A stretch of DNA of 44,595 nt from Nitrosarchaeum sp. GTDB lineage: Archaea; Thermoproteota; Nitrososphaeria; Nitrososphaerales; Nitrosopumilaceae. Position numbers and translations under genes: made by a program. Position 1 is the first letter of the stretch; every line of letters begins with the position of its first letter. The notes beneath the pieces were generated by a model, which was given only the letters and a program-made list of their open reading frames with translations, was not told the DNA's origin and searched no databases. Of this stretch, positions 5,053 to 25,194 are shown in pieces. The stretch is taken from the NCBI GenBank assembly GCA_021414105.1, contig JAIOPB010000056.1, positions 1 to 44,595 of the forward strand. Reading direction: 5' to 3'.

Positions 5053-5154
5053 GCAGAGGTATCGAAGCCCGGTCAACCGAGAAGGACTCAAGATCCTCAA
5101 AAATAGGAAATCCTTTCTCTCAGGAGTTCGTGGGTTCAAATCCCACCCTCTGCA
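5053..5154 (+). tRNA. tRNA-Leu (anticodon CAA) with a 17-nt intron
   Basis: The acceptor GCAGAGG (5053-5059) pairs with CCTCTGC (5147-5153), and the discriminator is A5154. The T arm is TGGG-TTCAAAT-CCCA. The long variable arm (TCTCTCAGGAGTTCG) marks a class II leucine tRNA. Read straight through, the anticodon stem is imperfect. Removing 5093-5109 gives a perfect 5-bp stem AAGGA/TCCTT around loop CTCAAGA with anticodon CAA at 5089-5091, placing the intron at the canonical 37/38 site. The intron can form a 4-bp TCCT/AGGA helix, so the splice motif is probably a relaxed bulge-helix-bulge. Mature length is 85 nt. CCA is not encoded. Confidence 0.9.
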
Positions 5155-22178: not shown

Positions 22179-22302
22179 TCCCAAGCGAAGGAATTGAACC
22201 TTCGACAACCCGGTTTCTGTATGCCTGATATGCTGTTATTCGGTCAGCCATCGTAAGCCGACAACTACAGCCGGAAGCTCTACCAGGCTGAGCTAGCTTG
22301 GG
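22179..22302 (-). tRNA. tRNA-Tyr (anticodon GTA) with a 50-nt intron
   Basis: On the minus strand the acceptor CCCAAGC pairs with GCTTGGG. The C1-G72 pair and A73 are archaeal tyrosine identity elements. The D arm is GCTC...GAGC and the T arm GAAGG-TTCAATT-CCTTC. Anticodon stem TCCGG/CCGGG closes loop CTGTAGA once the intron (22215-22264) is removed between positions 37 and 38; the anticodon is at 22266-22268. Loop bases CTGT can pair with ACAG at the intron's 3' end, followed by AAA as a 3-base bulge, which fits a bulge-helix-bulge splice site. Mature length is 74 nt; CCA is not encoded. Confidence 0.93.
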
Positions 22303-23056: not shown

Positions 23057-23467
23057 ATGAGCAAACCTGCTGATCTTGGTTCATTAAAAATAGGTTCATA
23101 CATTCTATTACCCGTCTCTGATCAACCCGATGGTGAGGCTTGTAGGATTACTGAATATGATACATCTAAACCTGGAAAACATGGTGCAGCAAAGGCTAGA
23201 ATTGTAGGTGTAGGTGTATTTGATGGTAAATCCAGACCCCATGTCGGACCTGTTAGCATGCAAGTACATATCCCACTAATAGACAAGAGAATGGGTCAGG
23301 TCATCTCCATTATTGGTGAAACTATCCAAATTATGGATTCAGAAACTTTTGAGACAATTGATGTCACTTTAGTTGATGCTGAAATAAATGGAACAGTTGA
23401 AAATGGACAAAATGTTGAATATTGGAAAGTAATGGGTCGAACCAAAATTATGAGAATAAAAAATTAG
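23057..23467 (+). CDS. eif5A: Translation factor aIF5A (hypusine-containing)
   Basis: Promotes peptide-bond formation at difficult sequences. The 136-residue protein has the N-terminal SH3-like domain with PGKHGAAKARIVGVGVFDGK; the first lysine after PG is the hypusine/deoxyhypusine site. The C-terminal OB domain includes VISIIGETIQIMDSETFETI. Length and motifs are standard for archaea. Starts 34 bp after the hypothetical gene; followed by a 195-bp gap containing an inverted repeat. Confidence 0.97.
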   Translation: MSKPADLGSLKIGSYILLPVSDQPDGEACRITEYDTSKPGKHGAAKARIVGVGVFDGKSRPHVGPVSMQVHIPLIDKRMGQVISIIGETIQIMDSETFETIDVTLVDAEINGTVENGQNVEYWKVMGRTKIMRIKN

Positions 23468-24829: not shown

Positions 24830-25062
24830 TCCAATCTAAAATTATTAAATTCTAATCATTAAACTATCGTTGAATTTGAATTTACAATTTTTAAAAAATT
24901 TAGGTTTTATTTAATGAATCTGTATGAACATCTAATTTATACAACCACATACGGTTGCTGGATTTTGCATTATGGGATATATTTGACCTCTACACACTGG
25001 TTTACAAGGACATGTTTATAGATAATTTATGTTACCACATGGATATACAAATAACATTCACA
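24830..25062. other. Intergenic region before the sRNA, no supported gene
   Basis: A/T-rich gap. CAACC-ACATAC-GGTTG at 24940-24955 can form a weak 5-bp hairpin. A short plus-strand frame from 24955 runs into the C/D box sRNA and I treat it as a shadow. Nothing else supported. Confidence 0.4.
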
Positions 25063-25073
25063 GCTAAAATAAT
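25063..25073 (+). promoter_or_regulatory. Possible TATA element of the C/D box sRNA
   Basis: CTAAAATAATG centred about 22-24 bases before the predicted 5' end of the sRNA at 25090. Confidence 0.4.
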
Positions 25074-25089
25074 GCATATTCAAAGTAGT

Positions 25090-25158
25090 ATGGGTGCTGA
25101 TGATGAGCGGAAAAGCCGTCTGATGTTTGATGAGGATTATGAGTAATGAAGCATCCAT
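25090..25158 (+). ncRNA. C/D box sRNA, predicted guide for elongator tRNA-Met C34
   Basis: Box C ATGATGA at 25100-25106, 13-base spacer, box D' CTGA at 25120-25123, 4-base gap, box C' TGATGA at 25128-25133, 12-base spacer, box D-like ATGA at 25146-25149. The flanks ATGGGTGCT (25090-25098) and AGCATCCAT (25150-25158) form a 9-bp stem with one G-U pair. The second guide GGATTATGAGTA is complementary to a CUCAUAA anticodon loop plus its 3' stem. The fifth base upstream of box D pairs with C34. Cm34 of elongator tRNA-Met is a known C/D sRNA target in other archaea. The D box deviates (ATGA not CTGA). The target of the first guide is unknown. Confidence 0.75.
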
Positions 25159-25194
25159 GCCTTTCTTTGAATATTTGTTAAATTATTTTGCAAG

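Follow-up and report, generated by a model that had tools for sequence, protein, structure and literature searches.

A predicted dual-guide box C/D sRNA of Nitrosopumilaceae with candidate targets in 23S rRNA and elongator tRNA-Met

We describe a locus in a Nitrosarchaeum sp. which, with a probability of about 85%, is the gene of an archaeal box C/D sRNA with two guides, predicted to methylate the equivalent of E. coli C2510 in 23S rRNA and C34 of elongator tRNA-Met. It was found in a stretch of DNA of 44,595 nt (the window), which lies on contig C50 of a 91.6%-complete assembly of 1.29 Mb. RNAs of this type are known, while this family and its combination of an rRNA and a tRNA target look new. 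A literature search, which covered the subscription literature in part, yielded no publication that combines Nitrosopumilus with a box sRNA, none linking Cm2510 with archaeal 23S rRNA and an sRNA, and, among the titles and abstracts listed, no description of this RNA.

Architecture, conservation and neighbourhood of the sRNA locus

The locus contains the four boxes in the order and with the spacing which the earlier note had claimed (C, 13 nt, D', 4 nt, C', 12 nt, D), and ATGA is indeed present in place of CTGA at box D (Table 1). Exact CUGA at both D boxes is a consensus and not a defining feature; here it is found at D' and not at D. The sequences of both motifs (C with D and C' with D') would allow formation of GA/AG k-turns, the feature by which archaeal C/D boxes were defined in one published set (PMC4644070). 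In the terminal motif, the predicted G.A pairs are G102.A149 and A103.G148 (C ATGATGA with D ATGA; bases are given by the last three digits of their positions). Both guides have the expected approximately 10-12 nt beside D or D' with the fifth base on the target base, as read on the targets of relatives, and the locus has the closing stem and the overall size of approximately 50-70 nt which are typical of archaeal C/D sRNAs. The closing stem consists of 25090-25097 paired with 25151-25158, plus U98-A150 and the wobble pair U89.G159.

Table 1. Features of the predicted sRNA locus, in positions of the window
Feature	Position	Strand	Basis or remark
Box C/D sRNA gene (predicted mature RNA ~70 nt)	25089..25159	+	Boxes, covariance model, fold
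TATA-like box CTAAAATA	25064..25071	+	~25 nt 5' of predicted RNA start
Closing stem, 5' arm	25089..25098	+	Aligned copies and RNAfold
Box C ATGATGA	25100..25106	+	Sequence and aligned copies
D' guide, 13 nt	25107..25119	+	Predicted to pair with 23S rRNA; G115 opposite target C (E. coli C2510)
Box D' CTGA	25120..25123	+	Sequence and aligned copies
D'-C' spacer	4 nt, between 25123 and 25128	+	Sequence
Box C' TGATGA	25128..25133	+	Sequence and aligned copies
D guide, 12 nt	25134..25145	+	Predicted to pair with elongator tRNA-Met 31-41; G141 opposite C34
Box D ATGA (not CTGA)	25146..25149	+	Sequence
Closing stem, 3' arm	25150..25159	+	Aligned copies and RNAfold

RNAfold predicted a stem of 10 bp at -18.1 kcal/mol (z -2.21), and 6 of 200 shuffled sequences were equally stable. 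In 25 aligned copies, 82.5% of the cells of the 8-pair stem are paired, compared to 26.5-43.0% for six slid versions, and changes on both sides were found at five of the eight pairs. The covariation controls for the closing stem are mixed: 50 of 500 column shuffles reach five pairs changed on both sides, and a slide by +2 matches or beats the true stem on the three count measures.

A blastn search with a 109-base query revealed the sRNA in 34 of 61 genomes including its own, and in 17 of the 18 genomes of its genus. The covariance model built from the 25 aligned copies matched 193 of 250 genomes of the order (57 were without a match), a number that includes the genomes which supplied the model sequences and overstates the spread of the family because some matches are other C/D-like RNAs. 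In its own genome the locus scored 97.2 bits, and the runner-up, itself C/D-like, 36.5 bits. Altogether 74 loci were fetched, 34 from the first search and 40 from the 193 matching genomes, picked to span families; eight of them were excluded as other C/D-like RNAs, so that the 66 retained copies are selected as members of this sRNA family. In three f14 genomes the sole reported match was such an excluded RNA. The guide-core counts given below cover all 66 copies, and the parsing of guides and box D covers 62 of them (without G094, G043, G077 and G163). In named genomes, the pattern GGAARAGCC-NN-CTGA-gap-GATTATGAG occurs at 80 loci at least; among the 80 matches listed, 78 were titled Nitrososphaerota or unnamed archaea and two were bacterial (Echinicola and Ruegeria), the latter presumably by chance. 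Judged from its sequence and distribution, the locus is a real, widely conserved C/D sRNA and not a product of chance.

According to Pfam, the neighbouring genes encode aIF5A, a Na+/H+ exchanger, a diphthamide-synthase-like protein, SRP54 and Pus10. In 13 of 37 loci, the sRNA stands immediately behind the stop codon of an aIF5A-like C-terminus, and in most of these 13 the TATA-like box overlaps the T-K-I codons. Among the 32 loci of sufficient length (five of the 37 given were too short), 25 have the motif TAAAATA 44-46 nt 5' of the D' guide core; TATA-like variants were picked after viewing the sequences, and this count refers to TAAAATA alone. In the window, aIF5A is encoded at 23057-23467, and the exchanger (antiporter) gene lies between it and the sRNA. 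Nevertheless, the last stretch before the sRNA, including the TATA-like box, was retained. Since this box-bearing stretch was kept although the exchanger gene separates it from aIF5A, the sRNA is likely transcribed from its own promoter. The region 25041-25088 is similar to the terminal part of aIF5A, even though the complete gene already stops at 23467; it appears to be a remnant or a duplicate of this part that remained after the antiporter gene had come between.

Predicted targets of the two guides

Searches of the source genome for the 16S and 23S rRNA families returned nothing, and tRNA searches did not reveal elongator tRNA-Met in this 91.6%-complete assembly, in which the initiator tRNA-Met and one further CAU tRNA are present; the latter looks like tRNA-Ile2. 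The earlier note had proposed to compare the guide with the tRNA-Met gene of the same genome; as neither this gene nor the 23S target was available there, both targets were read from relatives.

The 23S regions of two relatives (G014 and G009) were scanned with the D' guide, for which the earlier note could name no target and had advised a search of rRNAs and tRNAs. This search was successful: one match stood out, TCGGCTTTTCCTA, in which guide bases 25109-25118 form 10 contiguous Watson-Crick pairs with the 23S rRNA sequence CGGCUUUUCC. In the target motif CGGCUUUUCC, the N+5 rule points to the C preceding the four U residues. This base, which faces the fifth guide position, is C2608 in the 23S rRNA of G014 and aligns with E. 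coli C2510, which belongs to helix 90 and lies close to the peptidyl transferase centre. For archaeal 23S rRNA, a hotspot of methylation has been predicted in helices 90-93 (PMC4644070). A convincing tRNA target of the D' guide was not found in several scans, one of which covered a single strand; the 16S scan was limited to the part beside the 23S rRNA.

Alone, the 23S match is only moderately significant, because 3 of 200 mononucleotide-shuffled D' guides reach its score. Stronger evidence for the predicted target is the comparison of guide and 23S rRNA between families. Matches to the 23S rRNA were obtained in 40 of 61 genomes, with CGGCTTTTCC in 26 of 26 genomes of family f1, to which the source genome belongs, and CGGCTCTTCC in 14 of 14 genomes of other families. 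The D' guide reads GAAAAGCC in f1 and GAAGAGCC elsewhere, and GAAGAGCC goes with the 23S sequence CGGCUCUUCC of the other families. At guide positions 3-9, a script found agreement between guide and 23S rRNA in 25 of 25 f1 genomes and in five of six others; G043, read by eye, agrees too, which results in six of seven. The exception is G054, where the guide GAAAAGCC is combined with the 23S sequence CGGCTCTTCC and keeps an A opposite C; its sRNA may have been retargeted or be of foreign origin. The matched change corresponds to roughly one event on the tree. GAARAGCC is present at the right distance from D' in 64 of the 66 copies (in G070 it is one base short, and G077 lacks it), and thus this guide varies less in the copies read than the tRNA-Met guide, the core of which, TATGAG, is kept in 55 of 66 copies.

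The elongator tRNA-Met gene was located by a tRNA model search in G014, a relative with a single-contig genome, and a near-identical gene is present in 15 of 17 same-genus relatives (the match in G013 is partial). The D guide GGATTATGAGTA can pair with positions 31-41 of this tRNA, and by the N+5 rule G141 faces C34, as had been predicted. The anticodon loop pairs with the guide as proposed, but the 3' stem bases of the relatives are UCU and not UCC, so that the last guide pair is G.U; including it, the guide forms 11 pairs on the spliced tRNA and 12 on the intron-containing precursor. Exon 1 ends with ...GAGTGCCAG and exon 2 starts with ACTCATAATCTGG. A bulge-helix-bulge, by our reading TGCC/GGCA with AG^T and AT^A as its bulges, places the intron at 30/31, a non-canonical position in the tRNA-Met of the relatives. 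Therefore, the guide target is uninterrupted and lies wholly in exon 2, and both the precursor and the spliced tRNA are possible substrates. Positions 31-40 of tRNA-Met read ACTCATAATC in all 42 parsed loci, and the pairing of guide positions 3-11 with tRNA bases 32-40 is unbroken in 33 of the 34 genomes with both sequences (the guides of G010, G030 and G028 were taken from a separate reading of the aligned copies). In the exception, G026, the pairing is broken by a mismatch at tRNA base 38.

When 42 of the 45 tRNA-model matches of G014, its 23S rRNA and part of its 16S rRNA were compared, elongator tRNA-Met was the best target of the D guide, and none of 200 mononucleotide-shuffled guides scored as well. 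Discrimination by the guide is modest, since the initiator tRNA and tRNA-Ile2 differ by one inner mismatch each, at base 39. Cm34 was seen on initiator tRNA-Met in M. maripaludis and P. furiosus (PMC7668247). A search for tRNA-Met in 37 genomes via the contiguous string ACTCATAATCC was given up: of the 45 places found 30 were read, all of them the sRNA itself or unrelated sequence, and the tRNA was missed because it reads ACTCATAATCT. We also dropped the idea that a pair between the final bases of guide and intron makes the guide specific for the precursor; this guide base varies in relatives, and the f8 genomes G043 and G057 lack the intron at 30/31 in their tRNA-Met.

Some additional observations concern tRNA introns. 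In five tRNA-Met genes of order-level relatives (L182, L184, L186, L191 and L192) a further insert follows the anticodon stem besides that at 30/31. The window harbours intron-containing tRNA genes at 5053-5154 (plus strand) and 22179-22302 (minus strand), which were missed by ARAGORN; by our reading of the anticodons they would be Leu(CAA) and Tyr(GTA), respectively. A Gln(CTG)-like tRNA elsewhere in the source genome (L059, G000:C63:7062-7169) has inserts in the D-arm and anticodon regions, possibly two introns.

Box D, the second guide and alternative explanations

The first base of box D is not C in any of the 36 f1 copies, which have ATGA (24), TTGA (10), ACGA (1) or, one base off, TGAA (1). 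In f8 we found CTGA in seven copies, CCGA in three and ACTG, with CTGA one base further, in two (C-initial in 10 of 12); one f13 copy has CTGA and two f7 copies have CAGA. Where box D is one base off (G206 in f1, G205 and G214 in f8), the N+5 rule would miss C34. The 11 copies without TATGAG belong to families f2, f3, f4, f12, f13 (G070) and f16. Scored against the RNAs of relatives, the D guide of G051 fits C34 of tRNA-Leu(CAA), and that of f4 fits the 23S rRNA at E. coli C2501 (numbered by offset), nine bases from C2510.

Other C/D-like sRNAs were noticed in the course of this analysis. L276 (G014:C1:52197-52273) and L277 (G009:C1:1714875-1714951) have a canonical CTGA and a D guide, GGATCTTGAGTT, which fits tRNA-Leu(CAA) with N+5 on C34; a copy of this type was not recognised among the own-genome matches read. 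In the source genome there is a second C/D-like sRNA, L275 (G000:C49:15750-15831; related loci L253, L254, L274 and L278), box D of which is also ATGA. Its D guide GTTTGCCGAATT matches the 23S sequence AATTCGGCAAA with 11 Watson-Crick pairs (from 1795 in the 23S rRNA of G014).

The loss of the first C of box D throughout f1, together with the replacement of the D guide but not of the D' guide in several other families, would be in line with a true C/D sRNA that methylates 23S C2510 only, its box D being eroded to ATGA or TTGA, its terminal C/D motif therefore weak and its tRNA-Met guide being inactive or just binding. We consider this unlikely, because an idle guide is hard to reconcile with a tRNA-Met core kept in 36 of 36 f1 copies, and 35 of these 36 also retain the UGA core needed for the G.A pairs (one has ACGA; in G206 the core is shifted by a base). 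The opposite possibility, a guide for tRNA-Met C34 only, would mean that the 23S complementarity is due to chance or merely helps the rRNA to fold, with the sRNA acting there as a chaperone and not as a methylation guide. The three shuffled guides reaching the 23S score speak for it, and so do tRNA-targeting sRNAs of Pyrobaculum, which according to a review have a second guide without a target (PMC7994747). However, a D' guide that is retained in nearly all copies and tracks the 23S change between families makes this very improbable.

It is even harder to believe that the locus codes for a short protein or belongs to an untranslated part of the aIF5A mRNA. Admittedly, a 63-codon ORF (24955-25146) overlaps it, and its position directly behind aIF5A in 13 of 37 loci would fit an mRNA element. 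But the ORF has no Pfam match, a stop codon is located just upstream in many relatives, and in the window, where the antiporter gene separates aIF5A from the sRNA, the latter is still present together with its TATA-like box. We therefore favour the dual-guide sRNA. We infer that it is transcribed and forms an RNP with L7Ae, Nop5 and fibrillarin, in which the D' guide would direct 2'-O-methylation of the C2510 equivalent next to the peptidyl transferase centre, while the D guide would direct that of the wobble base C34 in elongator tRNA-Met.

Relation to known guide RNAs and significance

At the gathering score, no family of Rfam 15 reached its cut-off at the locus, and family membership was not assigned; the weak matches to many C/D families are read as a sign of the class only. 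The best match, sR41 (RF01126), reached 28 bits versus 54 needed and reflects the common C/D layout and UAUGAG in the second guide; its first guide is unrelated to that of the window sRNA. To regard sR41 as a tRNA-Met family on the basis of UAUGAG was ruled out, as it is described as an orphan, possibly for 23S G1950, in PMC2584109. The sRNA of the window can also be compared to sR49 of Pyrococcus and sR-tMet of haloarchaea. To our knowledge, neither of them has been described to carry a second guide, for rRNA. Both are archaeal C/D RNP guides predicted or reported for tRNA-Met C34, like the window sRNA (PMC2584109 and PMC4033218), in agreement with the earlier note, which had stated that this position is C/D-guided in other archaea. 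Clear homology to sR-tMet (RF02163) was not detected (14.8 bits versus a gathering score of 50).

E. coli C2510 presumably corresponds to human 28S C4456, by the offset G2553/G4499. For C4456 in helix 90 of the PTC, human SNORD49 is listed in PMC12288042, and thus it is a C/D guide for apparently the same rRNA base as the D' guide described here; homology between the two was not seen (Rfam, 10.2 bits versus 37). The tRNA base addressed by the D guide, C34 of elongator tRNA-Met, is methylated in humans by the C/D RNPs SNORD97 and SCARNA97 (PMC6601510). These are two separate RNAs with a D-box guide for tRNA-Met, and the accessible part of this source reports no rRNA guide for them, whereas the window sRNA would carry an rRNA and a tRNA guide in one molecule. 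In this respect it also differs from the tRNA-targeting sRNAs of Pyrobaculum, since targets are predicted for both of its guides.

It is tempting to speculate further, although we regard the following as tentative and rather doubtful as a whole: an old sRNA of the Nitrososphaerota may tie together the marks at C2510 and at tRNA-Met C34, both of them C/D sites in humans, and may have lost the C of box D in Nitrosopumilaceae. Because of the intron position at 30/31 it may act before the splicing of pre-tRNA-Met, and in other families, which retain the ribosomal guide, its second guide may have been swapped for guides to C34 of tRNA-Leu(CAA) or to 23S C2501, leaving a record of retargeting.

Ammonia-oxidising archaea are abundant in sea and soil. 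With the sRNA described here, they gain a guide RNA family for which both targets are predicted, and two candidate methylation sites. Along the tree of this family, the retargeting of guides and the erosion of box D can be traced. Should both marks prove real, a single archaeal RNA would cover two sites which in humans are served by separate snoRNAs.
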